Of a stretch of DNA of 64,000 nt, positions 578 through 45,107 are shown one piece after another. Each line of letters opens with the position of its first letter. The stretch's first letter is position 1. The notes beneath the pieces are model-generated. The model was not told where the DNA came from and did no database searches. It saw nothing but the letters and a program-made list of their open reading frames with translations. A program made the position numbers and the translations under genes. The DNA comes from Amylostereum areolatum (lineage: Eukaryota; Basidiomycota; Agaricomycetes; Russulales; Stereaceae): assembly GCA_012932865.1 (NCBI GenBank), contig SAXG01000105.1, positions 1-64,000 on the forward strand, in the 5' to 3' direction.

Positions 578-1747
578 TCATCGAGGAAGGGGTCGAGTAG
601 TTCGATCTGCTCGGAAGGTGAGAGGGGGTAGATTTTGCACGGTTTGGGGTTCAAAGCCATCTTTCATGTCGATAGCATGGTCCCATGGTCGTCGGTCAGG
701 AAGTCGCTCGGAGGTTTTTTTTTGTCGAATACAGGCGCGAAGTCGCGGTACGGCGGGGGGGACTAAGTCTTCAAAGGTTTGCGGGCGTGCGTTCTCTTTG
801 AATGCTCTGCAAGCTCCTGCGCCTTTGTAAAGGCCCGCGCGGATGGGTATTGCATCTGGATTAGGACCATCGGTTTCAGGGAGGATTCCGGCGTGGCGTA
901 GTCCATTGATCTCCCAGTCTCGGAATACCATGGGCCGCTCATCGTCGTCTTCAGTGAAGAGTCGTGCGGGTAGAGGGGAGCGATGGACCGTGCGGACGCG
1001 AACACCTTTGACTCTGCGTGCAGGAATAACATAAGTGGGGACTGGGGTCCAGGACACATATGTCGGCTCTGGGAAGGGATCGTCCACGACGAGAAGTGTC
1101 CTCGGGGTTTTACCCGCTTCAACCTTACGCTGTGATTGGACCGATGATGGTTTCCGTGGCTTGGTCGCGAGGTTCGTCACAGGAGGTTTGGACAGAGTGC
1201 ATGAGGGAGGGCAGCGGAGCATGTCAACACGGTCTCGTTGCCAGTCTATGGTTGGATTGTGCTCATCGAGCCAGTCTGTTCCAAGGATCATGTCATGATC
1301 GCCGATGTCGGTGATGAAGAACTCAGCTTCTTCCTCATGGTATGCCTTTGAATCTTGCGAGTATATCCGGATCCGCTGGGTCGTTGTGTCGCATACCCAG
1401 CCCATGATGTTCTCGGTGCCGTCCACATTACGCACGGGGAACGGGTTTTCTAGTTTTCTTGTGGTGAGCTTCTTGCGTTCAACGAAGCTTCGGTTCAGGA
1501 TAATTCCTTCTGCGCCGCTATCAAGCAGCGCGTCTGCGTCGATTTCTCTTTTGGTAACTCGTCCGATCAGCTTGACTTTGAGCGTGATCGATGGTGTTTG
1601 CCTGTTTTTGGTGACAGTAGACAGATACAGACACGGGGGATACGATTGCTCACAGGTATGCATGGATGATAATACAGCGAAACGATTCGACGATGATACC
1701 AAAAGTCCTTTGCCTCCACCAGACGACGCGACTGGGGGGCGTTTCAA
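578..1747 (-). pseudogene. Ty3/gypsy aspartic protease and pol linker
   Basis: The 389-codon frame contains the retropepsin signature ALLDSGAEGIILN (active-site D-S-G), followed by FFITDIGDHDMILGTDWL, the second conserved strand of retroviral-type proteases (about residues 50-160). The C-terminal part is a basic linker that in an intact element would run on into reverse transcriptase. Here the RT continues in other frames. It cleaves the Gag-Pol polyprotein in live elements. This copy is separated from both Gag and RT by shifts, so it is not expected to make a working polyprotein. Confidence 0.8.
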
Positions 1748-1959
1748 AAATCCTGCGATTCCAGGATGTCCTTCAACAGCGCTACTGCCTGCTCCTTGCC
1801 TTCCGCGTCCAGATCCTTCAGCTGGCGAGTGATCGCCGCGATGGTTTTGGATGGGTCGGGAGCTGCTTTCGCAGTGGACGGAGCCGTGTTCGTTCGGCAG
1901 GGAGGGGCCTTGGACCCAGTCTCTACTGCGCCCACCTCGTCGCGCGCTCGAGTCGCGGT

Positions 1960-2010
1960 TGGGGCAGTCAGCGAGAGACGTGACCGGCTTGTCGACACAT
2001 GAAGCACTTG
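1960..2010 (-). other. Gag CCHC zinc knuckle, split by a frameshift
   Basis: Minus-strand translation gives GKCFMCRQAGHVSR, then an in-frame TGA. One extra T separates this from DCPNRD in the next frame. Together they form the C-x2-C-x4-H-x4-C nucleic-acid-binding knuckle typical of Gag. It lies just downstream of the Gag stop and upstream of the protease, as expected. Confidence 0.8.
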
Positions 2011-2034
2011 CCTTCGCGCATCATCTTTGCGCGC

Positions 2035-4119
2035 TCAGTCGTCCGTCAGCTTTGCAGGGCGGGTCGAGGTGTTGGTGAAGGCGCCGACTCGGCGCGACGA
2101 GGAGTCGTTGGTCGAACCGTTCGAGGTGAGCGCGACAGCCCCCTTGGACTGACTGCTCTTCCTCTCCGGGTTCTCTTCGAGCCACTGGTGGTTGATGCGG
2201 CGGGCGCGCTCCTTCCACTCCGCGAGCTTGGTGGGGAACGGGTACGACCGGGCCACCTGCTTGCCGAGGTCACGCTGAAGTCCCTTCTTGAAAAAGTGGA
2301 TTAGCGCCTCGTCGTCGTACGCTGACATGGTTGCCAGCATCTCAAACTCAGTGATAAAGTCAGTGACGTCCCGGGTGGTCATTGCGAGCTCGTTGATCTT
2401 ACGCTGAGCCTCTATCTTCGGGTCGACGGGCACGAAGTCTTTGCCAAACCTCTCGAAGAGCTCTTTGTAGGAGCTATAGTGGAGTGTTGGGGGCGTGGGG
2501 TCGAGGGTGTCGGCGTCTTCCTTCTCGTCTTCGTCGGCGAAGAGTTCCATGCGGCGATGCGTGGCCCAGGCTTTCGCCGTGTCGTCCTCCATCAGGCTGA
2601 GGAGGAGCATCATCTTGGCGTCATCTGTGGCATAAACATCCTTGTTAACGCGCAGGAACATGCAGAGCTCGAGGGAGAACCGGAGGGTGTCGCGTCTATT
2701 GCCTTTGAATGGCTTTGGCTTGGGGCCGATCTCCCGCTTGGAGACGGCAGGTTTGGATTCGGCGTCGGACATCTTGTCGAAGGGGAGGGGGACAGTGAGG
2801 GATTGGGTGAGTTCTTGATCAAGGCGGCGTAGGGTTTCTCGTCGGCGTTCTTCTGCTTCTTCAACTTCGTCCTCAACTTGTTTTGCGATAAGGAAGTCGG
2901 CGGGGGTGAGGAATTGCTGGTTATGATGCCACGACCAGTGATCTTGGACGGGACTGAACGAAGTGGGCTGCCACTCAACTACTGATCGTCCTGGGGTTCC
3001 GTTCTTGTTCCGTCTATAGGCGTACCACTTCCCAGTTGTGTCGTTGTGGTTGATCCCTTCTGGGACTTCGATTACAGTACGTCGACGGGGTGGGGGCGAG
3101 TTGGTCGGAGGGGGGTTCAGGAAGCGCTGTAGAACGTCCGCAGCGGTGGCAAAATCCGATTCTTCGACGTAGGGTTGTTCGTCGCGGTCGTCGAAGTACC
3201 AGTCTCGACGTTGCCGGTTTGGTTCGTCGTGTAGCCAACGTACGGATTCCTTAGTCTGCTGCGAGGTGAGGATATAGTATTCTTCGGGACAGTAGTCTCG
3301 AAAGACGCCTGGGGGAAGGTTCGGGGTGGGGGGACGAGGGGCTGTGGAGGACGTGATGATGGTCTAGAAGAAGTCCGCCGCGATGGGGCGACGGCCGAGG
3401 AGTTTCTTGGTGAGGTAGCCGGCTTTTACTGCCTGGCGGATCTTATGTTCGTGGTGGCGGCGACGAAGGGTCTTACCCTTGATGGTGGGACGGAGGACTG
3501 GTGGCGGGGTGGATTCGGGGGTCCGGCGGTTAAACTGGGAGACGGAGGTGAAACTGGTTTGGAGGATCGGGTTGGGGGTGTCTTGGATGAGGTATGTGTG
3601 GTAGGTGGGGGCGTGGAGGGTGAATTCAAGGCGTTCGAGATCTACGTTGATGCACGTAGTGATCCGGACGTATAGGGCGAGGACGACAGTACCGTGATCC
3701 TTGTGCCACCTCCACTCGAAGATGCGGAAGTTGAGGCCGTGCGCGGTCCAGGGATCTTTCTTGCAGAGGTTCTGTACGGGGACGAGGCAGTTGACGGTGA
3801 CGGCGTCGGACCAAGGGTAGGGGAGTGGTGCGTCGTCGCGGGGGGTGATCGGCTTTCCGTTGAACGGGAGGAAAACCGGTGCGTTCGGGAGGTCCGTGGT
3901 GGGAGTTTTTAACGTCGTAGAGACGGCAGAGGTAGATGGAGATAAGGGTGCGAGGTAGGCGTAGGGGTAGACTGTCCAGGTGTCAGAAACGCAGTTTATG
4001 AGACCGATGAACCGCCTAAGTCGCGACGATGGGAGGAGCGAGAAGAAAATAGATTCGAGAGTGCCGGGGTCTAGGGTAGTGCAACGTACACTACAGTACC
4101 GTATGACGAGATGGACAGT
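2035..4119 (-). pseudogene. Ty3/gypsy Gag, extended frame with one internal stop
   Basis: The usual Met-started Gag would be 2035-2772 and ends in PAKLTDD. The same frame stays open far upstream, through acidic FLIAKQVEDEVEEAEERRR-like coding sequence, to an upstream TAG at 4120-4122. Only one stop interrupts it (TAG at 3364-3366). The open stretch is about 690 codons, and I see no in-frame ATG before 2772, so the original start must lie upstream, perhaps across an intron, or has been lost. The body is the hydrophilic retrotransposon capsid type (Retrotrans_gag), with motifs such as LELCMFLRVNKDVY and the FIKEFEMLA-like FITEFEMLA. The C-terminal zinc knuckle is separated from it by a frame change. 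Confidence 0.75.
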
Positions 4120-11738: not shown

Positions 11739-14700
11739 CTACATCGTCAACAGCTGCTCCAAGTCAAACGTCCCTGCCGGTTGTACGAACAGCTCCCCGA
11801 TGCTATACGAGGCCAACAGCTCGTCCATCGACAGCGGATAATCTGCACCCATATCCAGGTCAGGATTATCCGCCTTCAACCCACGCACAAGCTTTGAAAA
11901 GAAGGACGTACTTTGTTGACTTTGCTCCAGGGCCTCCTTCGCCATGGACGCCCTCAACGACGTCTCTGTCGGTGGGGCCGTATTGAAGGGCAGGTCCGGG
12001 TCTACGTCCACCCCAACATCAGCATTCATCCACCACGAAAAAAGATGGTAAAGCACACGTACGAGTAAACCGATGCAGAAGTCCCTGGTCCGGCAGCGCG
12101 ATAAACGTCCTCTTCGCCCTCGATGTCCGGTCAATGGGCATATACCCCAGGGCTACTCGAGATCACGTCAGCTCCACGCCACCACAAACAGAGAACAAAT
12201 CCCACCAGCGGCGCGCTGCTCGAGCATGTTGGACACATACGCGATGCTCTCCCAGTAATGGTCCATGCGCTGCATCGCGCCCGTCAACGTCGCCAGATTC
12301 TGCATCGCGAACGATTTGAGCAGCGCGTCGGCCGTGGTCAGTTCTTCATTCTGGACCTTGTTCGGTGGCGGGAGGGGGAGGGCCATCGGTTTGTTGTCGT
12401 GTATATACGCCAGACTGTCGAGGACACATTAGCACATCCACAAGCGGAAACACCACCAACGAGGACGAACCTCGCAATATAGATAGGCTGCACGCAACAC
12501 GGGCTCGCAAGCTGTTCCCGAACGTCCCTTCAGCGTCCAAGGTTCGCCAGAGAATACGACGGCCAACACTCACGTACGACTTGCTCGCAGACACATCCGC
12601 GAACATCAAGCAGTCCGATATCGTCTTCGAGCACTGCAGCGCGACCTTGACGCTCCGAACCATGTTGTGCGTCAACGGCGTGTCCGCCCCGAGCGGGCTC
12701 CTCGTCAATTCCGGATGGTAGGTGAGCGCCATTACCGCGTTCGCCCACAGGTGCAGCGTGAGAAATGTTCCCTGTCAAAAGCCCGGGGGGAAAGGCCGTT
12801 AACATCGCTCCGCACCTTCCAGTTCCGGCCACGAACATGCCCGGATGTTAGAATCGCGGAAATAGGAAAATCGGAAAATCGGAAAGCGGAAGCGGAAACG
12901 TGGAAGATAGGGCCGAGCGCGCGTACAAAAGGCAGGCTTGTCGCAAGGGCCCATCATGTATCTCCCACCCCCTATCCTGACGGCACGCGCGCTCTCATCC
13001 AAGGCCTAGCAAAGGAAAGCAGCTCACCCCGTGTCCTCGCTCTTCCTGGTGCTTGAACGCGCCCACGCTCCACTTCAGGCTGTCCGGGAGCCCCGCGTGG
13101 AAATCGACCAATTGCGTCTGCAGCGTGCTCAGCGTGCCCGGTGGATCCTCCAGCCCACCTAACGTCCTCGGCCGTCCTCTCCGTCCATTCAAGACCCTCG
13201 CGATGCGCCCGCAGATGACCATGAGTCGAGCGATGTAGTGGAAGGGCACGGGTTCTGGGAGTTCGTTCGAGGCGGCGGGGTCGTTTGTCCATGCTGGGTC
13301 CGGGAAGAAGTCTTCGTCTGAAGGAAAGGGAATTTCGATGATGTCTTCGGGTAAGGATGGTGGTCGGCCGGTGTTGAAGGCCAGAATGCGGTCCTAGGTG
13401 GCAAGATGAAGTCAGTGACTGTGCTGTGAGGGGGTGGAAGGAGGGAGGTCCAAGAGGCTGGTGAGCACTCACCGTGCTGTTCATTCCGATACACATGTAC
13501 ATATTGTCAACCACAACCGAGTCGTGTTTCGTTCCGAATATATACAATCGCCCAACGACACCAGATCACCCCCAGAACATCCCGTATATTTGTCAGCACC
13601 AGGTCGTACCCATATCTGTCAGAAAGGACGCACATAAACAAGCTCCAGAACAGTAGCCTTGTTCGTGTGACGTGCGCAGAAGATTCGTATATCTCTGAGA
13701 TCTAGCACGCACGATCAGCTTTTCCAACGCCAACCACGGCAGCACGCACACACACACACACACCTCATGTATTCCCAAATCCAACGCCATCCGAATCGCC
13801 ATCCTGCACACCGCGCCGAATCAGCCTCTATCCTTCAAGCCACCCCTTCCTCTCTCAACGCACCCCGAGTATTGCTATTCACCCAACATCGATCAGCCAG
13901 CGCTCTTCCGGCGAATAGAAACGAACTTGCCCACATCCCACTCTCCGAGTTCTGGAACCGATCTTCCAGTTAGCCCAATGAGAAAAGGGGGAAAGCGCAT
14001 GACTCGCCTGGCCGTAATTCGCCCACGCGAGGAGCAGGAGTCCGGTGACGACGTCGGTCGTGGGTAGGTGTAACAGGGGCACGATCAGCTCTTGTGCCTT
14101 CGTTATGAACGGTGCGCACGCCTACAGGAGTCCAGAGCATGAGCCCAGAACATTGAAGAAAGAAGGAAACACACCTTGGCTGGTTCATTAGCGTTTCCAT
14201 CCGCGAACCTATGGATGGGAACACCAGGACCCCTGAAACGCCCGCCAGAGGTCCGATCCGCTAGGGGGGCTTTCCCCCGGGTTCCGCAGCAGCTCGAAAG
14301 GGTCGTTCGACCCCGGGTCGCGTCCTCGGACCTCCACCAAAGGTTGGTCTAACCCCGGACCTGTCCTCAGACCTCATAGATAGCGAACCGTGTATGTATT
14401 GTAGGTTCATAATGCGACTGGGTACTCTAAAATGTTATGGATGTAACTAGGGTAAAGTATGGGGGGAAGTGTACCATATTTACGAGTCGCCACCGGCAGG
14501 TGCTCGAGAACGGCTGTGCATTGCTCCTATTGCCCGCTGAATGTCGGCCTCTTTGCTCCATATTTGCGAAAGGATTTGAACATCCTGGCTTGAAATAATA
14601 TACTCGCGACTACTCTGTTCAACAGAAGAAACAGATACCAAGAAGGCCGATGGTGGAAGTAGTGCGAAGCGCGGGACTTTGAGCAGACGTGATTCGGTTG

Positions 14701-17700
14701 GCTTTGGGATGACACGGAACATACGAGGGACATGGCCATGGCCAGCCTTCCCGGGTTCGAAAAGCTGGACAGCGATATGAGAGAGAGCCATGATCTGCGT
14801 GCATTCGGGCACCCAACCATGAGCGCCGTAGTTTCCGCCTGATTTGACATAAAGTTCAAGCACTGTAACACGGGCTATTTAGCTCTTCGAAGTATCGGTG
14901 CGGAGGACGTTGTACTCACCTCGCGCTAGCTGTATGCGGCCCTCGTGGAACACAAATGCGAAGTCGTGGCCGGCAGCGGCTTTGACGGGGTGTTCCTTGG
15001 ACACGAGGGCAGTCTCAAGGAGAGCCGGAAGCTTGAACTTGCGAATCGCCTTCGTTCGTTTGGTTTGTTCCTAGAATCGTAGGTCGAATCGACGCTCACG
15101 ACAAGATACAAAATTTGCACTTACCGAGCCAGCTCGATTGTCCGCAGCCAGTGCAGCATTCGCCGAATTCCCCGTCTTCTTCCCCCCAGTGTTTGTCCAA
15201 CGTGCCAAACGATCCTGGCCTGATCCATCAGCCTTCTCTCCAGGTTTATGGAGAATATTTCGATATGTTTTGACGAGTTGCGCCCGAATCACTGCCTCCG
15301 CAGGTCGTGTTTGCTCGGTGGATGACTGACGAGTCCCTGTTTCGGCCTGGCGCGTCTGGTGTTTCTCGCGAAGTTCTGTGAGAGTGTCCATATCCAAGTC
15401 CGAGCAGTCTGACAGTGCAAGCGTAGTGCGCTCTCGTGGATCCCTCGTATCCGGAAGTGCATTCGCAAGATAATTACCGAGTTGTTGAGCATCCTCTTCC
15501 CACATCCGATCTGCGTCGGCACTTGTCTCGTCAAGCATCTCGCTGCTGAGAATTTGAGTTAGGAACTTTCAATTCACCACCTAAACAGACGGTGATAGAG
15601 AATACATACATCATGATGCCTCGTTCGATGGAAAGCGAGGCGGCGGCCATTGCAAGTGCATTCAATTCGTTATCTTCAGAGACAGTGGTGGTCTCGTCTT
15701 CCCAGAATTCCATTGTACGACGCAACTCGCAAGCACTTGTGTCGTCTTCGTCCTCCGACTTGTCTTCATGTTCATCTTCCCCTAGTACGTTGTCATCGTC
15801 ATCATCGCTATGGTCCGCACTAGAAGACGATGCATTTTTAGCCAGCATAGAATATACTGAAGGTAACCGCATCCGGGAAACCTCCCAGTCACGATTGACG
15901 TCGACACCGAGAAGTTCCCACAAGCCAGCAGCTTCTCCATATGCGGCATGGGCAATTGTCTTGATCTCTTCATCGGACGGGAAAGCGGACAGTGCAGCGA
16001 GGTCCATGTTTTGGTCATCTTGGTACGTGTGGTTGTAACCTTGCGCGCGAGCCTTGCCATCGGAGACGTTGTTGAAGAGGAATTTCTCCCGAAGTCGAAT
16101 TTGCAGTTTAGGTGCCATGTATTGGAAGTCGAGCGCATTGAAGTCCTCGACAATCTGACGAGACACGCCGAAGACATGCTCACAGCCTGGAGTACCAATC
16201 TTCCATGGCAGGAGCGGGTACTTCCCGCCAAGTTCGTCGCGGAAGATTATAACAGATTGGATGAGTGCGTCGGCAAGAAATTGGGTGATGTCGAGGGCCT
16301 CTGGGGATAGACAGTGCTTGGATTTGGGGTAGCCTCCACGCGCGAGGAAATCCTCCCACATCTCTGTAAAATAGAGGGTACGTAGGGCAATGTGGATGCG
16401 ATCCGATAGACATATGAAACGATTGCTGTAAGCGTCGGGAAGCTCGCCATAAACATAGCAGAAGACAATTGTGCCACGTTGCTCGTGATGATGCTTGACT
16501 AACCAGCGCAAGGTGTTGGCACTGAAAACTCGGATTGCGGCGTTGTCATCCTGGCGATCTAGCTTCTCAATGTCGCGATGATAAATGGGACCGGGTTGGC
16601 CATCTTGAACTTCAAATGCGAGAGCGCGTATGTGGCTGTAGGCTGCGATGTAATGCCCCAATGTCAAGACACGAGCACCCGAAAACAGATTATTCCTGTA
16701 TGTTTTTTCGACCATGATCTGGATCTTGAGCAAAGATGACGGGGATTTCCCGGTCAGATCCGTTGACCTTGAAGAACCCGACTCGGTAGTGGCGGTTACG
16801 CGCAGGGTCAACGGGATGGGGAATGACATAGTCTCGATACCTGGCCGCTTTTCCATGCAAGATACGCTCGATTGATCGCTCCTTCGACGAGCCATCTGCT
16901 GAGTATACGACAACCTCGATGTCAAGCTTATGGAGCCCAACCAAAACAGTCTCGAGGTGCTTCCAGAGGTCCTCGGCCTTGGCTTTGGCAGATATCGGCA
17001 TCGCACATACGAGTATGGTAGGAACATTTGGGGCAAAAGTTTGCAGTGTCCAAACACGGAGCTGAGCACCAGAGCATGGATCAGATATTGGTTATTGGTG
17101 ATGGTACAGGACAGCACACCTGGGTAGCCTTTTCGATTTTCCCTTGGTTGATTGCATGTGCGAGCTCGTCAGGTTCAGGGAGTATCATGGGTGGGCAATC
17201 GGTTCCACCGAGCAAAACATACTGCCCAAGGTCGGCATCCCAGTACGGGTCTAGCGATGGCTCAAGTTTGGTATCATCGCATGCCAACGCAACGGGGCCG
17301 TTGTACTTGAGCTTGTCGAGAATCTGTCGAACACGGTCGAATGTACGCTCCTGTATTCCAATAGGAAAACGTGGCTCGCGTGACCTTTGAATTCTGGGTA
17401 ACAAGTTAGCACAACTCGGAAAGAAGCTTGCCAGTACTGTAATTCTACTTACTGCAGCGTGCGCGCGTGCGGAAGTGGCAGGACCTGTCGCATTGCCTGA
17501 TATGCTTTCGGGCTGTGGATATTGAGAACATGTGCGAATTCTGTCACGGTGGGAGCATAACGCATTGCACGCGAATCCACACCACGACGAGCCATCTCGT
17601 CTCGGTCGACTAGGGCTTTCAAGAAACCTTTGAATACATCCTCGTTCTTGAATCTTCCCTCTGATACTCCTCGTGCAAAAACTAGGTATGGCTCGCGTGA

Positions 17701-20700
17701 ATTCTGCAAAGTGTGATGTAAGAAATCGCATCCACTCAACATAACACAATCACGTACCTCCTTGAATGCGTTAAGGATTGACTGGAGGCCGATGACTCGA
17801 GCGTACCGGTCGGTGCTCATCTCCGCCCCACGAACCACTACTTTTGCCGTATACTTCGCATTTTCTGGGTCCTTGTCTTTCTGGTGGCGACGGAGTGCGT
17901 TCGAAAAGGTTTTGAGAGATCGGAGCGATTTGCAAGCTACACATGGTGGGCGAGAGGCAATGTCCGTGTCCTCAGGAACTTGAACAGATAGTGAACACTC
18001 GGTGGAAACTACACGTTGGAGGTCTAAATCAACACGCCACTTCCAGCGGGACCGTTGAGCAGCATAGACGACCTCTTTCTGATCTTGGGATAAATTCCGA
18101 AAGTTTTTTGCGGAGGGGAAGAGTTCGTTCGTCAACAGTGAAAGGGAGGGTGCTCCACCGCCATCAGTGTATCCTCGATCTAGGTAGTTTTTGATCTTGT
18201 CATCCGTTCTCGCAAGGAGTCCTGGGCATGGTAATTCGACAATGCGACGGGAAGTGGGCATCGTTGTTGATGCACGCCACGAGTCAAGTGACGACATTCC
18301 GCCGGTGCCACTTCTACATGGCTTTTGTTTTCCGTCTTTACGACCAAGGACATGCCTTCGGAATGCGTTGACTTCATGAAGAGCATCCATGCGGATGACA
18401 CAGCCGCAAGTAGAGTGCCGAACAAGGAAAGGATCCCGAGGGTCGAATTCAGCGTGAGAGTCGTACTCGCGGACCTTCCTCTGGAACTCGTCCTTCTTTG
18501 CACAATCTTCAGTGTACGTCCCGTCCGCCACTCCCTGTTTGATAAACCGCTGACGCTGGGCAGTCCTTGAGTTGCCTACGTTCGCAACACTCCCGGTTGA
18601 GTCGACCTTTACATGCGTTGGCAATGATTTCCCCTTCGAGGAAGCGCGGGCAAAAAGCTTGCTGATCTTTGTCGGCTTTGGTGTGTGGTCGCTCTCCTCA
18701 CTTGACCCCTCGATGTCACTGAAGGTACGCTTTTTGAACCAGCCAATGACTTTGTTGGCTTTTGCCACCTTCCCCTCCGCCGCTGCCTTCTTTGTGCTCG
18801 CAAATATATCAAAGGTCTTGAGCTTTATCCGGCCTTCATTGTGTCCTGCCGGTGCGGACGACGAGGACTGGGTAGACCCACGAGATACTGCACGAGAAGA
18901 GGGATGGAAAGCGGGAGGATTTGAGTTGAGTTTGGGTAGTATGTCCGAGTTATTATGTGGCACAACAGGGGGAGGGATTGGGGGACCAGTGTCGGCGGTG
19001 TCATTTGACATTGTACTGGAAAATGATGTCGAAAGGTTTGTCTCTGCATCTTGGGTGGGAAGCTGAAGTTGCGCACTCATGCAAACTGTAGTAGGGTCAT
19101 CAATATCCATCGGATCGTTGTAGGATCCGTTGTCGTTGTCGTCAGCAATCATAACGTCTATTGCTTGCTCGGTCGGAAGGTAAGCGTCTCTGGAATCCAT
19201 GGCCATCGGCGAAGGAGGGCTAATTGCTATCGGAGCAGAAGGAACATGGCGTTCATCCACAGCTAACAGCCTTGCCATGCCTGACGGAAGGCGGCTGGCT
19301 CGTAATGATCCTGCAGTGTGCGCTGGCGGTGGTATGCTTGCCACTCGGCCCTTAACAGTATCGTGGGTAGGTGAGTTCGTGTTCGTGATGATAAAGAATA
19401 ACAACTTACCACTCTGCTCCTTGTATGTGCTTCTGCTAACCGGACAAACCAGCGGACTCGGTGTTCAACAGCTGTTGTCTGTGTCCAGAGAGCCTCGTTC
19501 AATGTCGTGTGGGCAATTGTATTTGCCGCACATATTCCACATGACACCCAGTCGTCTTGAGTCGCACAGGGAAATGTATCGTCGCTGTCAACCCATCTGT
19601 ATTCGCCGCCGAGCCGGACGCGCAACCAGTGTTGTACTTTCGTGACCACTTCTTGAGGCCGCTCAAGTTTATGCCGAAGACTGTCGCCTGTACCCCTCTG
19701 GTAAATGTCCCAAAATCATGTATCATAGATTGGGTTTCCTCACCATAAGCCACTGTGCGCTGATGACCATCTATCCGTAGAATAGCGAAGTGTTGTTGGT
19801 CCTGGACAAAAACCGGCATGAGGACAACCTTCTTGCCCTCGGAAAGGATTCTTTCGGTTTGACGGAGAAATCGGGGCGACCTGGCTTGATAGAAATCCGC
19901 GCGCTCTGCTTTTCGAATCTCGTTCCAGATGTCGAACCCGTGGACCTCGTAAACACGGCTTTCCGGTGGTGCATTTTCAAGCTGCTCCACAATCCAATGC
20001 ATCATCATGTTGAGGGTGAATGTGCTGACCCGCCCGTCTCCTAGGAGCTTGACAAAGTCTGCTGTGGTTGCATTCATTTGTGCGCCTCGAATTGCCGTCG
20101 GTTCGTGCCATGGTATAGTTGCTACTTGTCGGAGTGCCTCTTGAACGTGTTCTCTTGATTCCTCTCCCTCCTCTCCTGCCTTGCTCTCTAACCAAGTTAT
20201 GGCATTCTTCCAGGCATTCTGTATATCCAGAATTGTGTGCATCTGTTGCCAGTACGTCACCACCCAGAATGGTAGTCGACCATCCCGATATTGGGGGTCG
20301 CAAACTGACTGCATCCCATCCAGGACCATTTGCCCAATCAACCGGTCTACCTTCCTTACAAAATCTCGAGGAGGGAGGTCACGGACATGGAGGTGAGCAG
20401 ATGCGCGGTCCGGCGGTTCCTTTGAAAATGCTGATGATGGTGCCGGGTATACGGATGTGTTGCTTCTCTTTGGAAGGGACGTAGACACAAAGTCCCAAAC
20501 AGGAAGGTTTGGACCAGGGAGAAGGTCGTTCTCCAACTGAGGGGGGATGACGAGGAGAGTCTTGATGTGATGGGCGAGTTCCGGAGGAATGTCGATTTGG
20601 GGGAATTGTTTTCCGGTGCCAATCCAGGTCTTGTGGTCAAAATCAGGTATTTCAGAATCATCGAGGACTGAGATAGGTGTATTCATGTGGTCAGGGTTGG

Positions 20701-22685
20701 GAAGTGTGAGTGTGAGTAAGGGACAGAAGGTTGAACATCAACGGCGGAGTAAGTGCCCAAGCTCCTGTCATTGTGCGCCTGTATAGGACGAATATAGGTG
20801 GAATAACTGCTACTTGGAGATAAAACTATTTATCTATCATATTTGGTCCAAATTACAGTACAATACCCTGTCTGTCCATCTCATAGTCCCCTCGGATAGC
20901 CCCGGGTCAAGGATCGGACCTCGCCAGCAAACGGTCCCTAACCCGGACAGATCCTCGGACATAGAGCCAAATTTGGGGTCTCAGACCCGGCATCCCCCCT
21001 CGGAGCTCGGCGCTGACGCGCCGTTTGACCCCGGGTAGGTGCATCGGACCTCTGGCGGGCGTTTCAGGGGTCCTGGAACACCTGAGCGCCAACGAAAGCA
21101 TAGACTGAGGTTAGGGCTGACCTGGCGCTTATAGCACAAATACCTACAGGAACATCGCATCGTCAGCAAAGCACCTCCCACCCACACGATCGAGACTCAC
21201 AGTTCAGTAAAAATGCACTCATGGTGCCCGTCTCGAGCCGTTCCTCCATCCTCTTCCGACTGATGCTAGGAAAATGCCTGCTCAAAGTCTTGAAGAACAC
21301 GTCCAAGAGCGGGATGTGGTATTGGGGGAGCGGAAGGCCGTGCTCGTCAAACATCTCCTCCGGGGGCACGGTCGTCTCAGGCGCGTGAGGGGTGCGTTCG
21401 CTGGATTCGGGCACAGGGCCGGCGGACGACTTCGCACGCGCTTGAAGTCGAAGTGAGATGCGGTTGATACCAGGGCTAAGTACGTGAAGTGCGTCAGCAA
21501 CATGAGGTGCGCGGCGGGGCGCGGATGCAAAGAAACGCACCTGATCGCCGTTGACCCAGGTTGGCCCGACTGACAGAGAGGCAATGCGACATGAGCTGGG
21601 AAGATCGCGAGAGTGGAAACGACGTACGAATCGGTAGTAGTACAATTCCAGGTCCTTTCCTTGGCCGTCGTCGTCTTGCGATTGGGAGTAAGATGGGACC
21701 GTGTGTTGAGGCATAGGGTGCCTTGGCAGAGAAGGGTCGGGAGAAAGCGGGAGGTAAGAAGCTGCATTCATGGACGGTGATGGACGAGAATGTGGTTGAT
21801 GGTGTTGTGATTGGGGGTGAGAATGTGAATGAAGCTGAGGGGAGCCTGTCAGGCCGCTACCGCTTGAGGAGGGGTTGCTCTGAAGCCAGGGAGCTGGGTG
21901 GTTTACGCTGGGCGAATTCGAGAGCGGAGGAAGCGTCCACATCGGTGTAGACGGGTTGTGAACTGGAGGGGCCATCGCGCGGTCCACGTCCTGTGCTTCC
22001 TCCATCAGCATCCCAAACATACGGGAAAGTGGGAAGAGGCGGGAGGTGGAAGGGAGTGGGATGTTAAGATGGAAGAAGCGCATACCCATGACCCATGCGC
22101 AACGCCGTTTGCAACCGTAGGTGAGACGCTGTGATCTTGGCTCGCGAACATCCTCGACGACGACGACGACGAGCTCGGTGGTTGTGGTGGGGGCGGCGGG
22201 GGCGGCGGATAATGTTGCTCACGATGTTGAACGCCGACACTCGTAGACCGCGACTCCGCATGACTGAGGAGATTCCTCGCGCCCTCCAGCCTCTCCTCCT
22301 CCTCCATCTCCTTTCGCGTGCGTTTCCTCCTCCGTCCTTCGGGCCATGTGCATTCCGCGTCCACCTTCGCACACGAGTTGCACACAGGCTTCTCGCCCGA
22401 GCAGCGTCCCCTTTTTGCGCGACATCGATGGCAGGCTGGAAGAGAGCGATCCCCGGCGTTAGCTCATGCAGTTTCAGACCGGATGGGTATAAGTGCGGCG
22501 CGCTGGAGCTGCCGCCCGAACCAAAATCCTGAGAGCAACGTACCGAGAGTTACGCGCCTTTCACCTGAATGCTCCACGCGCTCGACGCTGCCATTGCTGT
22601 TGCTCGAGGGCGATGCACCGTTTGCTGCTCGGCCGGCCTGGGACGGACGCGCCATGAACGCCTCGGGGGGCGACCGAGAGTTCAT
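11739..22685 (-). CDS. Zn2Cys6 fungal transcription factor, split by a transposon inside an intron
   Basis: Start ATG 22683-22685. Secure exons are 22544-22685, 22086-22435, 21628-21990, 21541-21569, 21201-21475, 21122-21143, 14175-14208, 14008-14121, 13764-13803, 13028-13393, 12578-12771, 12206-12414, 12063-12152 and 11739-12001; small exons near 13935-13951 and 13620-13705 are less certain. The N-terminus holds a binuclear zinc cluster (ACHRCRAKRGRCSGEKPVC then NSCAKVDAEC; six Cys), then a basic linker and a Pro/Ser-rich region. The middle is a Fungal_trans domain: LELYYYRF, PGINRISLRLQ, MSAFLLNCICAISAR, LLLLAWANYGQ, MAIRMALDLGIHE, LLFWSLFMC, DRILAFNTGRP. Such proteins bind DNA in the nucleus and regulate metabolism. 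Intron 6 (14209-21121) is about 6.9 kb because it contains a transposon; without it the intron would be 56 nt. One donor is GC (14007). Confidence 0.88.
13747..13763. repeat. (CA)n microsatellite at a splice donor
   Basis: A 17-nt CA tract; on the minus strand it is a GT run directly after the codon for the last residue of LGIHE. The intron donor therefore lies at the edge of a (GT)n tract in the transcription factor gene. Confidence 0.7.
14218..14225. repeat. Target site duplication, left copy
   Basis: GGAACACC, identical to 21075-21082. Together they mark an 8-bp staggered insertion. Confidence 0.9.
14226..14257 (+). repeat. Left terminal inverted repeat
   Basis: 32 bp, begins AGGACCCCTGAAACGCCCGC and ends GGTCCGAT; the exact reverse complement is at 21043-21074. 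Subterminal CCCCGGGT/CGGACCT motifs follow to about 14370. Confidence 0.92.
14480..20686 (-). CDS. Ulp1 peptidase-transposase fusion of the 6.85-kb element (two frameshifts)
   Basis: Inferred exons: 19410-20686, 17758-19350, 17453-17703, 17120-17393, 15610-17061, 15125-15545, 14920-15070, 14480-14862; about 1,930 residues. The first exon encodes a C48 (Ulp1/SENP-like) cysteine peptidase: His in QHFAILRIDG, then TQDDWVSCGIC with the oxyanion Gln and nucleophile Cys. A phase-0 intron (19351-19409) joins it to a Ser/Pro linker, possible zinc-binding segments (STCGCVIRMDALHEVNAFRRH and PPCVACKSL) and a DDE-like core: ALACDDTKL, VVYSADGSS, QDPDHGRK (D-x-x-H) and GTPGCEHVFGVSRQ. A highly acidic Ser-rich tail follows. 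Two one-base shifts break it: near 19650-19665 inside the peptidase, and in an A6 run at 16703-16708 just after DPDHGRK. As sequenced it is probably inactive, unless either shift is a base-call error. That the peptidase and transposase form one protein is inferred from in-phase splicing. Confidence 0.8.
21043..21074 (-). repeat. Right terminal inverted repeat
   Basis: Exact reverse complement of 14226-14257. Subterminal CCCCGGGT and GGACCTC copies lie at about 20885-21040, and are likely transposase-binding sites by analogy with other elements. Confidence 0.92.
21075..21082. repeat. Target site duplication, right copy
   Basis: GGAACACC, matching 14218-14225. Confidence 0.9.
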
Positions 22686-23333: not shown

Positions 23334-24186
23334 TTAATCGACATCGTCGGAGTTGAGCGTGGCCATGATCTGAAGAAGATCGTCGACCGTGAGATCGGCG
23401 GTGGCGATACGGCTGCAAGCATAATAAAAAACATCGACGATCAGGCGTGGAATGCATACGACAGGGTAGGAAAGATACATACCGGTTGAGGATGTGGTTG
23501 GCGATCGCCCCCGCAGCACCAGACGCGACACCGCCAGCGACGGCGGCGCCAACCGCTTTTACTGCAGGCGGGAACCGCGCCTCCAACTCCAAGTCAAACG
23601 CGTCGCGGTTGAGGATGTCCTTGGTAATGGCACCTGCAGCACCGGAAGCGATGCCGCCAGCGACTGCTGCACCGACAGCCTTCAAAGCGGGAGGAAAGCG
23701 AGCGTCGATCTCGTCGCGGTTGAGGAGGTTGTTCGCGATCGCACCGGCGGCTCCGGATGCGATACCGCCAGCGACTGCGGCTCCGACCGCCTTCACCGCA
23801 GGGGGGAATCGCGCGTCGATCTCTTCACGGTTCAGGAGGTTGTTCGCAATCGCACCCGCCGCGCCCGACGCGACGCCCCCGGCGACGGCGGCCCCAACGG
23901 CCTTGAGTGCCGGAGGGAAACGGGCGTCGAGCTCCATCTCGTCGCGGTTGAGGATGTTGTTGGTGATCGCGCCGGCTGCACCAGATGCGACACCTCCAGC
24001 AACGGCGGCGCCGACTGCCTTCAGGGCGGGGGGGAAACGCGCCTCGTGTCTATGAGAAACTCCATGAGCACAAACCCAGTCATGAGAGCGACCAAAAAAA
24101 TACCTGTCGACAGGGGCGGCAAATGCGGGGACAGAGGAAGACGCGACGAAGGCGACGACGAGAACGTTGGCGAAGGAAGTACGCAT
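23334..24186 (-). CDS. Secreted protein of five Ala/Gly-rich tandem repeats
   Basis: Three exons (24104-24186, 23483-24049, 23413-23482 being an intron, last exon 23334-23412) give about 242 residues. ATG 24184-24186 is chosen because a signal peptide (MRTSFANVLVVAFVASSS, cut after AFA near residue 23) follows at once; an upstream in-frame ATG at 24262 would bury it. The mature part is five near-identical units of about 33 residues: ARFPPALKAVGAAVAGG, then VASGAAGAI, then NNxLNR, separated by short acidic linkers (DEMELD, EEID, DEID, DAFDLELE). Gly/Ala spacing (GxxxG and AxxxG) resembles glycine-zipper helices that pack in membranes or self-assemble. The tail ends ADLTVDDLLQIMATLNSDDVD-like and is acidic. 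No Kex2 KR/RR sites separate the units. I know no family for it. Confidence 0.8.
23485..24046 (-). repeat. Five tandem coding repeats of 108-123 bp
   Basis: Units start with the codons for ARFPP. Protein copies are almost identical, while many third codon positions differ between copies, so the repeats are not a very recent DNA expansion. Linker length between cores varies (4-8 residues). Confidence 0.85.
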
Positions 24187-28900: not shown

Positions 28901-29237
28901 ATCCTCGTATTTGCCTCCAACGGAGTCCATATACCTTGCTCGGGTGGTTTCGAGCCCCCCCCTCCCCCCCTTGCTCATCCCCCGTGCCACATCAAGAAGC
29001 CAATAAAGCTATTTTGCAGATATGCAAATATATTGGCCATCCGATTCTCAACCTTGACACACTTCTTGCGGGCGGTCAGCCCACATGTATCCCCGCTTTC
29101 TCTCATCCGCTTATGTGTCTACTCCGCCATTCGCGCCCGCGAAAGGGAGCTCAATGGCACAATTCGCCTGGTACCATTGCATCGAAGACCAAACGCCACC
29201 ACGACAAATATCCTGACGCCGCCGACAGCGCGCAACC

Positions 29238-30500
29238 CTACTTGTACAGCGCAATCCTGGCCATGTTAGGATACGTACCCTCGCGGTGCTTCGACGTCTT
29301 GAGGAGGTCGCTCTCCCATGATCCATCATAGTTATACTCCCGCATCCACGACTCGAGTGTATGCCCCTCCGGATGCACCTTCCGGATCCACTCCATGTCT
29401 CTCTCGACCACATCTTCCCTCCAGACCGTCCACCACCCGGTGAAGTTCTTCCTCCAAGTCGTCGACCCGTCGCCCTTGGCCTTCTCCCCGGACGCGACCG
29501 GGATGTCCGGGTCGACGAGGTTCGTGAACCACTCGTCGATCGTTTGCGGCTCGAAGACGGCGGGTTTGCCCGTGACCTTGGTGAATGTACGTACAAGGTA
29601 CTCGCCATCTACGATGTCGCTCGCGACCTCGAGGTTTTTACCGGACGTCTCGGTGGGATGGTCGAAGATGTAGCGCGCGAAGAAGCCGATGTCGGCGAGG
29701 GAGACCACAACGACGTGGCCCTTCTCGAGCGGGAGGACGAAGACGTGGGTACTGTCGGCGCGTTTGAACATAGGTCCAAGCATGTACTGTATCGGAGTTC
29801 AGTGAACACATCGTTATCTCCACCACCGCGCGACACTTACCATCTTGAGCATGTCTAAGTACACCGCCGTGGTGAGCACCGACCAAGTCATGTCCTCATT
29901 CGATGGCTGGGACGACATCCACTCGCTCACGATCGCTTTGCCGTCTATATGGTCGCACTTGACCTCGGGGTTATAACCACCCTTCTGCAAGACCGACGTT
30001 CAAAACCTCACTATCAGTACGCATCCATGACCACAAAGTCAAGCAAAGGACTCTACTCGCCTTGAAGACATGGTCAAGCCCGCTCCAGACGTAGTGCTTG
30101 AGCGTGCCGACCTGCCTCGCGGTCTCGAAGATGCGAATGCCGGTCCAAATCTCGGTCGCCTCGCTCACGTTGAATCCATCCGTGTTCACGAATGCCCCGT
30201 ACGCACCATGCAATGACTTTTCGACGGCGGCCATGTCGGTGAACGAGCCTGACATAGGCAACGGTCAGCAGGACAATAACCAACCATCAAATACAACTAA
30301 AGGACCTTACCGGTGACGAGCTCGACACCTTGGGCGGCAAGCTCCTGGGCGGACTTGCTGGTTGGGTCGCGCGTGAGTCCGCGTACGGCGTAGGGTGAGG
30401 GAGACCCGTCCTTGGCGGGGGCAAGCAGTTTGTCGATGACCGCACGGCCTTGTGCACCGGTGGCGCCAATGACGAGAATGAGTTTCTTGGAGGCAGGCAT
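29238..30500 (-). CDS. NmrA-like NAD(P)-binding protein, paralogue 1
   Basis: Four exons (30311-30500, 30061-30248, 29841-29984, 29238-29786), about 356 residues. The N-terminus has the Rossmann dinucleotide motif VIGATGAQGRAVIDKLL (G-x-x-G-x-x-G), followed by VRGLTRDP and VNTDGFNVSEATE. These are typical of NmrA-like atypical short-chain dehydrogenases, which lack the Tyr-x-x-x-Lys pair and often act as redox sensors or reductases. The rest contains GHVVVVSLADIGFFARYIFD and VTGKPAVFEPQTIDEW, conserved in this branch. The start at 30498-30500 puts the Rossmann strand at residue 5. Intron 2 (29985-30060) has a GC donor (AAG|GCGAGT). A close paralogue with the same exon plan lies at 45108-46358. 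Confidence 0.88.
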
Positions 30501-36633: not shown

Positions 36634-36747
36634 CGAATCAGGCTTGATTTCGTGCGGCCTAAGCGTGAGGCGGGAGCTTGCGACGCGGGAGGTACGGGAA
36701 ACCGCCCCCGAAGGGGCATGTATGGATTGCGTGCGAGACGAGACCGT
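36634..36747 (-). repeat. Split direct repeat B2 (element end)
   Basis: Identical to B1. Its outer edge at 36634 is the element boundary. Confidence 0.9.
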
Positions 36748-36950
36748 TACAAGGGAGAAAAAGAGAAGAGAAAAAAAAAGGTTACAAAAGCAGGCGGTAA
36801 ATGTAGTTAATGCGAGAGCTCATGCGGTACGGAGGCGTGTGTATACGTAGAGCATGTGGGTATCCTCCGCTGGAGATCGTAACGGTCGCGGAGTAGGTAA
36901 GCGTGGTATGGGAAACCGGTCGGAAACAAACAAGGGTATGCGGTGGGCGG

Positions 36951-37319
36951 GAGAGCGAAAGCGGCGTGGGCGACGCGGCGAGGCAGACTCTGGCGAGAGG
37001 AGGGCGTCAGCGGAACGGTTCGAAGCGACGAAATGGGGACGGACCTGGCGAGACGAGGTGCTGGCAAGAGTTGGGGGCATCAGCGGTGCCCCCCGAGCGA
37101 CTCTTGTACTCTCTCGAGCGGGTACTTCCAAACCTAGCCCATCTGTAGCATCCCGCTACGGGCTAGGCGGGCTCCCGGTGCCAGGTCGTGCGCAGCCGCG
37201 GGCGCATCCCAACAAGTAGGTGGCGGCTCCGACGGGCGTCGGGAGCAGTCGCCCACGCGAGGACGGCACCGTGCGAAAGCGACGCCTGATTCGACTCCGA
37301 GAAACTCCTTTCAAGCCGA
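36951..37319 (-). repeat. Split direct repeat A2
   Basis: Identical to A1 (41811-42179) over its full length; directly abuts B1. It carries a non-functional copy of the Gag N-terminus. Confidence 0.92.
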
Positions 37320-37433
37320 CGAATCAGGCTTGATTTCGTGCGGCCTAAGCGTGAGGCGGGAGCTTGCGACGCGGGAGGTACGGGAAACCGCCCCCGAAGG
37401 GGCATGTATGGATTGCGTGCGAGACGAGACCGT
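37320..37433 (-). repeat. Split direct repeat B1
   Basis: 114 bp identical to 36634-36747; starts CGAATCAGGCTTGATTTCGT on the plus strand. Confidence 0.92.
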
Positions 37434-37500
37434 AAAAGGTATAAGAATTGAGGAGGAGGAAGGGAGGATGGTGGTGCGTGAAAGTGTGGGATGTCGAGTG

Positions 37501-38505
37501 CTATGCCCCGGTGCCCTCAGCAGCGCGGCGGGCGTGGATGAGGGCTTGAAGTAGGACGGGGTTCTTGCGGATGTACTGCTTGAATGCGTCCGAGCTCCAG
37601 CGCCCGATGGCCTGGATACGGTCGTCGGGGTAGCCCTCAGTGGCGTAAAAGGTGGCTCCTCCGGGACGGAGGGAGTGCCCGCCGATGTTCGAGTTGGGGA
37701 AGAGCGACTCGAGGCGGTTAATGAACCAGCTGCGCGTGGGGACCGTCCCGTCCTGCCTGACCCACAGCTCGGGAAGGAGGGTGGCAAAGCGGTCGCGGCC
37801 GGTGATGTATGCGCGGAAAAGCTGGTAGGGGTCGACGGCTTCCGTGTCACGTCTCGGGATGACCACCCTGTTGCCCTCGAAAAATCGGTCGGCCTTGTGT
37901 GTTGGGAGGAGGTATGAGTACGCGGTGTCTAGGAACTCCACGCTCGACCTCCGGATCGTCTTGCGGTGTGAGCGCAGGGCGCCGTTGTCACTGCAGACAA
38001 GTTCACCGAGGTGGTGGAGCCCGAAGAACCCTGCCGTGATGAGTGCGAGGAAGAGGCGGTCGTCGTGGGTGGGGTTTGGGTAGTGGCGGATTGTGAACTC
38101 GAGGTCGTCGAGGGATAAGGCGTCACGGCGGGAGATTGGGGAGTTATAGAGGCGGTTGCAGCCTGCCAGTGTCCGTGTGACAAGGGCGCTGCGGCGCGTG
38201 GCGCGAACATGTGGGAAGTGGGGTTCAAGCTGGTTGCAGATCCCTGATAGGTATGCGGGGATTGAGCGGGGAGAGATGTGTTGGGCCATGAAGACCACAT
38301 AGAAGGACAGGGTGTCGGCGGTGGGTTCGATGTCAAAGCTGTGGAGCTTACAGAAGGTCAGGTATGATTGGAGGTGGGATGTGTATGATAGGCGCGTGGA
38401 AATGTCAATCGCGGCTCCGAGGGCGAGCGCCCGTTCGCGAACGAGGCGCTCGGATGTCCAGGCTTCGCGGCGCGGCTGCCTGGACGAGCGTGAGATCTGG
38501 AGCAT
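37501..38505 (-). CDS. Tyrosine recombinase of the YR retrotransposon
   Basis: 334 codons, start ATG 38503-38505 overlapping the pol stop. The N-terminal half is the SAM-like core-binding domain (STRLSYTSHLQSYLTFCKLH). The catalytic half shows GGHSLRPGGATFYATEG (H-x-x-R), IQAIGRWSSDAFKQYIRKNP with the nucleophile Tyr. The first catalytic Arg, expected in an L-x-R-x-G-E box, is replaced: the sequence reads FFGLHHLGELV. A single CGC to CAC change would explain it. The enzyme should join the circular cDNA to the target; this copy may be inactive. Confidence 0.88.
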   Translation of the reverse strand: MLQISRSSRQPRREAWTSERLVRERALALGAAIDISTRLSYTSHLQSYLTFCKLHSFDIEPTADTLSFYVVFMAQHISPRSIPAYLSGICNQLEPHFPHVRATRRSALVTRTLAGCNRLYNSPISRRDALSLDDLEFTIRHYPNPTHDDRLFLALITAGFFGLHHLGELVCSDNGALRSHRKTIRRSSVEFLDTAYSYLLPTHKADRFFEGNRVVIPRRDTEAVDPYQLFRAYITGRDRFATLLPELWVRQDGTVPTRSWFINRLESLFPNSNIGGHSLRPGGATFYATEGYPDDRIQAIGRWSSDAFKQYIRKNPVLLQALIHARRAAEGTGA

Positions 38506-41500
38506 CAGCCCTGCGACCCCAGCGTCGAGCGTGGGGGTGAAAAGCCGTGGACACGGAGGGATGGTTGGTACTGTCGCACCACATTGAAAAGCCCCCGGGA
38601 TAGGGCGTCGGCAACTGTGTTCTTCTCACCTGGGATATGGTGGACGCGGAGGTTGATGTGGGAGGCCATGAGGATTTCGGCTGCCCGGAAAAGGAGGTCG
38701 TTGTAACCGGCACGCGCTTTGAACGAGTCAAATATCTGGACTGTGTTGAGGTTGTCGGTGTAGATAAGTAGCTTTGAGGGGACCTGGGGGAGGGCGGCCG
38801 CCCAGCTGAGTGCCGCGAGGACGCACAGTGCTTCGTACCAGAAGATGGTGTCTTCTGTGTTTGGGGCGGGGGGGAGTGTCGATGTGAATCCTTGCCCAGC
38901 CTGTGGTGACCAGAAGCCGAGGCCGGACAGGGATGCGTCGCAGAAGATAACCATGTCGGCTGTCGACGGATCCCATAGGCGCGCCCGTATTATGTGAATC
39001 CCGGAGGACTGCTGCAGGGTGGTCGCAAACCAGCAGAGGTTGCGTGAGACCTGTCCGTTGAGGAATATGGGGGCATTGGGCTTCTTCTTTCCGGATATTT
39101 TGGCATACGAGGACACGAGCGCAGGGCGGAGGAGTGGTGCCACATTGAGCGCCCAGTTCATCCAGCCGAGCAGGCGCTGCCACTTGACGAGGCGACGGCG
39201 GCGGTCGGGGGCCTCGTCGATGAACGCGTGGATGGCGGTGACTAGGTTGGAGATGCTCTCGGCGGAGAGAAAAATGGTCATGCTGACCGGGGAGACCTCA
39301 AAGCCGGTGATCACGAGAACACGGCCGAACTCCTGCTTGCTCTTCTCGTGCGGAATTCCGAGGAAGTCCCATAACTGGAGCAGTTGGACCTGCTTTGGGG
39401 GAAGCCATGCACCGTAGGGCTCATAGAAGGTGCAGCGGGGTGACAGGTCATGGGAGAACGTGTCGTCCATGTAGGCAAGGAGGGCTTCAATATGGCGGAT
39501 CTTGACAGCGATCCACAGGACTAGTGCGAAGAAGGAGCACCACAGATTCCCGGAGGTGCGGCCTCCGAAGTTGTTGCAGCGGTCGACACGGCGGACACCG
39601 TCGATTGTGACAACCTGGCGGAGCTGGTATAAGGGGTGGATAGGGATGCGGCGGTAGGCTTGGGAGACGTCAGACTTGAATAGATAGATCGGCACGTTGC
39701 CGTGGTGCCGGCGGACGTGCAACAGGTTGTGCGCCAGATGCTGAACTGTGTCGAGACGGACGTGTACGTCATCCTTGTCTATGGTTGAGTTGGGTGAGAA
39801 CTCGCCGGCAGAGTGGTCGACAATGAGGCGTAGCTTCCCCGATTTCTTGGGGATAACGCTGACGGGGACGCTGCACATGCCAGGGAGGAGGGGTTCTCCG
39901 GGGCGGCCGAAAGGTGGGGAGAAACGCCCGAGACGTTCTTCCTCGAGGCATTGCTGTTTCGCAAACTCGAGCTCAGCGGGCGCGAGTGGGCGCTCGGGGT
40001 GGTCGCGCGTAATTGGGTAGTCGTCCGGGAAGTCGGCGTGCGGCCAGAAACCCTCGCGGAAACCGCGAATGACAGACTGGACGAACGGTCGATTGGGGTG
40101 GGTGACGAGAAGCGACTCGAAGTTGTCTATATTGATGGGGGAGACGACCTTGAACAGCTCTGGGTATCTGCGAAGCGTCGCGAGTGCTATTTTGTCGTTG
40201 AGTGCGGAAGGGGGAGGTCCAGGGAGCGGCGCTGCCGTCTCCGTAGCGAGGGCCGACGGGGTGAGGATTGAGGCCTGCTCTTGACCCCACACGAAGCCGC
40301 GGAAACGGCGCGGTCCCGTCGGAGGGGTTGCTTCAGTGGTTGGTGTGGGCGGAGCCGTCGCCGCGGCCACACTCGTGAGCACCGTGTTTTCCTCCGCATG
40401 AGGAGCACGCGTGGCGGTACTTGCACCCTTTGCCTGAGCAGTTCCCGGCGTTGAAGCGTCGGCAGATTTCGGTGGACTGCTGGGGGCCTTGCGAGCGGCG
40501 AGCTCCCGTCGCAGTGCTGCCTCGCGCGCGAGAGATGTTGCTGGTGGCCGGTCGCGAGGCCAGTCCAGCGGTGATGTGCATGGTCTCGAGTGCCGTAAAC
40601 TCCTTGGTGTCTGAAAGCTCGAGGGCGTTGGACCTGCCGACGCGGGCGCGGACAGCGCGGTCGTAGTTGAGAACGAGGTCGTCGTGCCCGTGGACGGCGC
40701 CGAAGTAGTTGATGATGTGCCTGCGATAGGCGGCCAACTCGTCGCGTCGATGCGGGTAGACGAACGTGACGGCGTCCTGGTAGCGCTCGAATGCCATTCC
40801 CCACTCGCCGGATGTGGCGATGTGCTTCGCAGGCTTGGATGGTCCGCCGTGTAGCTCATACTCCCCGAGCTTCTGGATGTCGCGCCCGTCTCCCCCAATG
40901 GCGTAGAGGCTGGAAAAAACGACGTCGAGGTCGAAGTACGTGTCCGATAGGACTGCCTTCCATCCGGACTGGGGGAAATCGGGGCACTCGGGCATGGAGA
41001 TGACGATGGTTTTGATTTCGTCGAGGTGCTGAAGGTAGTTGGCCTTGAGCTTGACGGTAAGCCGGCAGTTGTCAGAGAGCGCTGAGTCCGCTCGGCCGGA
41101 GAGGAAAGGGAGGGAGGAGTAGTCGAGCTTGCGTTTGGCTGGGCGCCCGTCGTCGCTGAAGTCGTCATCGAGGCGACGATGCTTGCCAGAAAGTCGGAAG
41201 TCGAGGTCGCTGTCGCGCGAGCGTCCGCGCTGGCGCTGGCGAGAGCGCGCGCGCTGAGGGGACCGGCTGTCGTCCGAGTGGGAGCGCCTTCGGCGAGCGC
41301 GCTCACGCGGGGTGCGCGGGCTGTCCCGCTCGTAGCTCCTGCCGCGACGCGCGGTGCTGGCCGGCGAACGCGAGCGTCGGCGGCGGGTCTCTCCGACGTC
41401 GTTCCCGCCGAGTCCCCGCACACGGCGGAAACCGTCCTCCTCGTTCGTGAGTCGCCGCTCGAGGGCCTCCTCAAGGAGCGAGACGAAGTGGTTGTAGGCT

Positions 41501-41927: not shown

Positions 41928-41991
41928 GAGTTGGGGGCATCAGCGGTGCCCCCCGAGCGACTCTTGTACTCTCTCGAGCGGGTACTTCCAA
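40333..41991 (-). CDS. Gag-like protein of the YR retrotransposon
   Basis: 552 codons, starting MEVPARESTRVARGAPLMPP inside repeat A1. The N-terminal half is Arg/Ser-rich. The centre has a conserved-looking segment (GEWGMAFERYQDAVTFVYPH, YNHFVSLLEEALERR). The C-terminus carries a zinc-binding cluster, CRRFNAGNCSGKGCKYRHAC then SSCGGKHGAHEC, as in other Gag proteins of this order. It would package element RNA. It overlaps the pol frame, which begins 64 bp downstream in another frame. Confidence 0.8.
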   Translation of the reverse strand: MEVPARESTRVARGAPLMPPTLASTSSRQVRPHFVASNRSADALLSPESASPRRPRRFRSQPSRNSHMAQTEHVVPQEEGPHAGGPGPDAPQGGRPLSRRIQPDLSQLFVAGIADDCMRVVEQLEGGHLRLADAATNIDGLLASGTRADLSEEDEDAARGARAQAYNHFVSLLEEALERRLTNEEDGFRRVRGLGGNDVGETRRRRSRSPASTARRGRSYERDSPRTPRERARRRRSHSDDSRSPQRARSRQRQRGRSRDSDLDFRLSGKHRRLDDDFSDDGRPAKRKLDYSSLPFLSGRADSALSDNCRLTVKLKANYLQHLDEIKTIVISMPECPDFPQSGWKAVLSDTYFDLDVVFSSLYAIGGDGRDIQKLGEYELHGGPSKPAKHIATSGEWGMAFERYQDAVTFVYPHRRDELAAYRRHIINYFGAVHGHDDLVLNYDRAVRARVGRSNALELSDTKEFTALETMHITAGLASRPATSNISRARGSTATGARRSQGPQQSTEICRRFNAGNCSGKGCKYRHACSSCGGKHGAHECGRGDGSAHTNH

Positions 41992-45017: not shown

Positions 45018-45107
45018 ACAATTACTTACATAGTAATAGACGGAAGTAGTACTCCAGTTTATGTTATGATACCACCGAAAATCAATTCCAAGACCGTACA
45101 CGATACT

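Follow-up and report, generated by a model that had tools for sequence, protein, structure and literature searches.

Animals are the best-known hosts of P elements. As described in the literature (PMC7776569, PMC8230255, PMC10983969, PMC1562414), the Drosophila P element and THAP9 combine an 8-bp target-site duplication (TSD) and perfect terminal inverted repeats (TIRs) of about 31 bp with a helix-turn-helix (HTH) domain, an RNase H core of the D-D-[D]xxH-E pattern, an insertion domain and related miniature inverted-repeat transposable elements (MITEs). The same features are seen or predicted for an element at positions 14226..21074 of a stretch of 64,000 nucleotides from the fungus Amylostereum areolatum (assembly GCA_012932865.1, contig SAXG01000105.1, positions 1 to 64,000; the whole stretch is called the window below). 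However, the fungal element differs from its animal counterparts in its Cys/His motifs, with no THAP finger found, and in carrying a predicted Ulp1 peptidase at the N-terminus, as well as in the size of its protein (about 1900 amino acids, aa) and of the elements themselves (6.8-9.7 kb vs 2.9 kb). We interpret it as a recently inserted P-type transposon whose single predicted spliced gene fuses an Ulp1/C48 peptidase to a P-like transposase, and put the probability of this explanation as a whole at roughly 0.8; the fused P-type identity taken by itself is very probable.

The nearest named relatives, compared by description only, are probably the P elements of rust fungi recorded in 2011 (Repbase P-1_PSt, P-1_MLP, P-2_MLP, P-N1_MLP, and P-N2_MLP; PMC3164196), which share the host phylum Basidiomycota, the superfamily, 8-bp TSDs and the presence of both autonomous and non-autonomous members. 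The text of that paper contains no occurrence of Ulp1, peptidase or SUMO, and the rust-fungus elements may also carry the fusion. Ulp1/C48 domains do occur in other DNA transposons, namely Ginger1 and some Mutator-like elements, but these belong to other transposase superfamilies and the domain of Ginger1 sits at the C-terminus instead of the N-terminus (PMC2836005). Fungal Kyakuja-Dileera-Zisupton (KDZ) elements share the type of host and, in the case of Zisupton, the 8-bp TSD, but the element has no KDZ domain, and a term search of the KDZ paper gave no P element, protease or peptidase (PMC12730594). Likewise, Helentrons with tegument-like deubiquitinases join a transposon protein to a protease of the ubiquitin system, but they are rolling-circle elements and their protease is of a different family (PMC9741609). 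An initial annotation of the window had suggested an undescribed subfamily. We found no description of a P transposase-Ulp1 fusion in the papers searched in full text, a search that did not extend to Repbase, Dfam or most of the subscription literature. The P superfamily as such is already known from rust fungi.

A predicted P-type transposase core

The predicted gene lies on the minus strand and comprises nine exons, which encode a protein of 1914 aa in four open copies of the element; the eight introns between them measure 54-64 nt and have GT..AG ends throughout. Protein analyses are based on the copy on contig C150, and a single amino acid separates its protein from that of each remaining open copy. 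We place the predicted transposase core in the P superfamily, not in hAT or KDZ, because of a sequence match to the P-transposase HTH (PF12017) in exon 4 (17453..17703; E 1.3e-9, above the cut-off) and because of its predicted fold. Of 27 relatives scanned, 8 also match PF12017 (E<=1). The RNase H catalytic residues are near-invariant in our alignment and follow the pattern of D, D and E with [C/D](2)H: the first Asp is encoded by exon 5 (17120..17393; CDD, residues 1061/1062), while exon 6 (15611..17061) contributes Asp 1169, the D-x-x-H motif (residues 1226-1229), the insertion domain and Glu 1407. In the structure predicted for the relative P0040, the first catalytic Asp is part of a strand and the Glu (536) belongs to helix 533-545; the core is predicted to adopt an RNase H fold that includes a helical insertion domain, as in P transposases. 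Perfect TIRs of 32 bp, close to the short, perfect repeats near 31 bp of the P superfamily, and 8-bp TSDs at the window copy and at three of the four other copies fit the same assignment. GTP binding by the insertion domain and a 17-nt staggered cleavage inside the TIR are further traits of the superfamily.

Several points weigh against it. The relative used for fold prediction is 36% identical over 1088 columns and is not the element's own protein, and Foldseek also returned Hermes (hAT) in third place (E 6.9e-4). The Pfam model of the P-type RNase H domain (PF21787) gave weak matches to just 4 relatives out of 27 (E 0.048 at best), the single score recorded being 12.0 bits, below the cut-off of 24.6. 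Apart from these points, genome searches with PF21787 and with the insertion-domain model PF21788 gave no match, and neither did their controls. Pfam scans of the element and its relatives revealed no THAP zinc finger, the N-terminal mark of the animal P/THAP9 branch and a domain described as animal-restricted (PMC7776569).

The remaining exons, 7 (15126..15546), 8 (14921..15071), and 9 (14481..14863, with the stop codon), encode the C-terminal part, including a small beta-rich domain whose fold was predicted on a relative. It is conserved between residues 892-1042 of P0040 and exons 8-9 of the element; a Pfam search gave it no name, with only weak chromo-barrel/BAH-like matches.

In the window copy, exon 6 differs in length by 1 nt near 16.7 kb, so that the frame of the predicted protein ends after 1236 aa, which counts against an intact fused gene at this locus. 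The frameshift is confined to the window copy, with the other four copies open, and reflects either a broken gene or an assembly error. Because of it, two motifs that the initial annotation had assigned to one gene, QDPDHGRK and GTPGCEHVFGVSRQ, are both present on the minus strand but fall into different frames. Its claim of a complete DNA transposon holds for the structure, but the gene of this copy is broken unless the assembly is at fault.

The putative peptidase and its predicted junction with the transposase

Exon 1 (19744..20686) contains the start codon, an N-terminal region and the first part of the putative Ulp1/C48 peptidase with the catalytic His299, and exon 2 (19410..19687) the remainder with Asp316, Gln358, and Cys364. 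This domain is likely a SUMO-cutting enzyme; profiles built on 14 and 27 relatives matched yeast Ulp1 (1euv) with E 1.4e-12 and 2.7e-14, respectively. PF02902 was found in 7 of the 14 (E<=0.1) and 19 of the 27 (E<=1), two sets with three members in common. The element's own N-terminal part has no Pfam match, PF02902 included, which speaks against the assignment, and its substrate, SUMO or another, is putative. However, the catalytic His-Asp-Gln-Cys set lies within an Ulp1-type domain and is widely kept in our alignment of 128 sequences (His 99/101, Asp 92/97, Gln 102/102, and Cys 102/102 of those aligned at each position).

The phase-0 splice between the two parts, claimed earlier for 19351-19409, is backed by comparison across families. 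The predicted junction intron (19351..19409, minus strand) is 59 nt long, GT..AG and in phase 0, and such an intron lies directly 3' of the peptidase in all four families read, those that keep it being 23-46% identical to the window element in the peptidase region. Exon 3 (17758..19350) follows with a linker, conserved and putatively zinc-binding Cys/His motifs (one ligand is Lys in the window element) and a conserved GGG motif. In the stretch that leads from the intron to the first Met in the transposase frame, the element and the C172 family of the same genome have L-R-A-x-x-L-P-S-G in common, with seven matched codons that show synonymous changes only while the two x positions differ; in the window element, no in-frame ATG precedes this stretch back to a stop. 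Since all changes are synonymous and no ATG is available, the stretch is likely translated from the spliced peptidase exon, and its conservation would be hard to explain otherwise.

Comparison with relatives points the same way. Both parts occur in one gene model in 104 of 127 fetched relatives, always with the peptidase first. Every model that reaches 1450 aa (99 of 99) is of this kind, as opposed to 5 of 28 shorter ones. Trees of peptidase and core, computed for the 91 of 128 sequences that passed the coverage filter, largely agree (Mantel r 0.852, 0/999 permutations): they have 44 of 88 splits in common, compared with a mean of 0.2 and a maximum of 2 for shuffled labels, and 33 of 47 well-supported ones. 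This agreement argues for one old fusion event. On the other side, 23 of the 127 relatives lack the peptidase (all have at most 1418 aa and may be partial models), the relatives are automated gene models that possibly merge neighbours, and an intron or gene boundary falls exactly at the junction in every family with DNA read. A single fused gene, with one transcript spliced across 19409-19351, is predicted.

Two alternative views of the locus have to be weighed against a fused P-type gene. The locus could hold two neighbouring genes, a stand-alone Ulp1 peptidase and a transposase starting at a downstream ATG; the peptidase frame would indeed stay open up to a stop near 19263 if the intron were not removed, and the consistent position of the junction at an intron as well as the 23 transposase-only models would fit. 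We nonetheless regard this arrangement as improbable given the coding conservation ahead of the first transposase-frame ATG, the retention of the junction intron in such divergent families and the fusion in every long relative model. Still less probable, and strongly disfavoured, is that the transposase is of the KDZ/Zisupton or hAT type at which the initial annotation had hinted, with P likeness limited to a borrowed HTH. These groups also make 8-bp TSDs, the D-x-x-H motif is found in several superfamilies, the genome is rich in KDZ (160 matches) and Hermes appears among the fold matches. However, Pfam scans of the element and its relatives detected neither the KDZ domain PF18758, for which those 160 matches served as a positive control, nor hAT dimerisation or BED-type domains, and the predicted fold is clearly nearer to P than to hAT.

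Insertion, copies and related families

The perfect 32-bp TIRs (14226..14257, plus strand; 21043..21074, minus strand) and the 8-bp TSD GGAACACC on both sides (14218..14225 and 21075..21082, no strand assigned) are present as originally annotated. The TSD of Ginger1 and of the Mutator-like elements with Ulp1 differs from this 8-bp one. With the two flanks joined by one TSD as query, a search of the assembly to which the window belongs (57.1 Mb in 182 contigs) led to contig C169, where the site is uninterrupted: GGAACACC occurs there once, between flanks that match those of the window at 99.4-99.6% identity. This site demonstrates the insertion and, together with the near-identical flanks, indicates that the assembly probably contains both haplotypes. 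The junctions (14225/21075) fall inside an apparent coding exon in a gene for a fungal zinc-cluster transcription factor, with Zn_clus and Fungal_trans matches on the empty allele (L035, C169), so that this gene appears interrupted in the window haplotype.

A genome search for the same TIRs, as the earlier annotation had proposed, recovered five full copies, the ends of a related family and MITEs. The five copies measure 6848-6849 bp, are 99.96-99.99% identical to the window copy and have six variable positions in total. Four of the five have perfect TSDs, all different from one another, while the full-length copy on contig C172 (L009, C172:945489-952336) has none (flanks GATGCAGG / CCCCCATT); neither an empty site nor a second haplotype was found for it in the assembly, and it is possibly a rearranged insertion. 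Full empty sites exist for three copies, and for a fourth the right flank only, with one TSD unit. Near-identical copies, differing perfect TSDs and empty sites all speak for recent insertion.

Besides the five copies, the genome contains the families C172, C95, and C140, which are 64%, 37%, and 35% identical to the element in the core; two of these three have an 8-bp TSD (C172, 6862 bp, GGTGAAGC; C140, 9711 bp, GGGTGGAT). The TIR tip AGGACCC is unvaried across ten aligned ends from three families and two MITEs. A genome-wide pattern search allowing up to 3 mismatches gave 27 TIR-like ends as opposed to 0 with the reversed pattern, an excess over chance. Ten belong to the five copies, two to the C172 family and twelve to six MITE-like copies, while three are single. 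These MITE-like copies are 491-501 bp long with perfect 8-bp TSDs in all six cases, and five of the six, reference included, are at least 98% identical. They would be mobilised in trans by the fused P-type transposases. Anopheles, too, has P-MITEs flanked by 8-bp TSDs (PMC1562414). If our explanation is correct, this genome, with its four open copies, its empty sites and its MITEs, would offer natural substrates for studying excision.

Distribution, peptidase role and window context

Relatives come from about 50 named genera according to the matches listed (120 of 335 in one search), nearly all of which we take to be Agaricomycetes, with one partial relative from Phenoliferia (Pucciniomycotina). 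Recurring in 104 of 127 relatives and about 50 genera, the fusion is no local oddity. Names given to the relatives at the source (e.g., "Ubiquitin-like protease family" and "THAP9-like helix-turn-helix") show that automatic annotation treats the parts separately. If true, our reading would add a large and recently active branch of P elements from mushroom-forming fungi, and the P superfamily would join Mutator and Ginger elements in having acquired a protease of the SUMO type. With the two enzymes apparently fused and inherited together, a single protein would be enough to test the function that Ulp1 domains have in transposons.

The fused protein would drive P-type cut-and-paste transposition, with the HTH and zinc-like motifs binding the element ends and the RNase H site cutting and joining DNA with an 8-bp stagger. 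The tethered peptidase may strip SUMO or a comparable tag off the transposase to which it is joined, or off host proteins present at the donor or target site; the most likely effect would be to weaken SUMO-dependent silencing or to facilitate repair. In other superfamilies, Ulp1 domains have been proposed to take part in transposition (PMC2836005). For the present peptidase, we consider a SUMO role about evenly balanced, and the broader scenario of an ancient, basidiomycete-wide P branch whose active, tethered SUMO peptidase serves as counter-defence against SUMO-dependent silencing or frees its own transposase is tentative and rather doubtful.

The peptidase could also be a passenger, i.e., a captured host Ulp1 domain that is structural only or has no part in transposition, given that its function is putative and that the catalytic His is missing in 2 of 101 aligned sequences and the Asp in 5 of 97. 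We find this unlikely in view of the invariant Gln and Cys, of long co-inheritance with the core and of peptidase codons that change less at the second than at the third position (0.274 vs 0.614; two families compared, synonymous sites saturated). Slightly less likely again is a role in maturation, with the peptidase cutting its own fused protein, e.g., at the Gly-Gly-Gly of residues 804-806, to free the transposase. Ulp1-type enzymes cut after Gly-Gly, and this motif sits between peptidase and catalytic core with Gly in 59, 55, and 64 of 65 aligned rows at its three positions. However, conserved glycines are common in loops, the first two are both kept in just 82% of rows and no ubiquitin-like fold has been shown to adjoin them. 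Self-release is a weaker alternative to SUMO removal.

Elsewhere in the window, frames for a retrotransposon gag and an aspartic protease lie at 581-3363 on the minus strand, and a 111-bp tandem repeat at 23601-24046 occurs four times with long open frames over it on both strands. A duplicated block (29235-30500 and 45105-46358) recurs about 15.87 kb apart with pieces 78-94% identical. The region 36634-42184 holds a Ngaro/DIRS-like retrotransposon with split direct repeats (36951-37324 = 41811-42184 at 99.7%; 36634-36754 = 37320-37439 at 98.3%), in which one frame has weak reverse transcriptase/RNase H matches and another looks tyrosine recombinase-like by eye.
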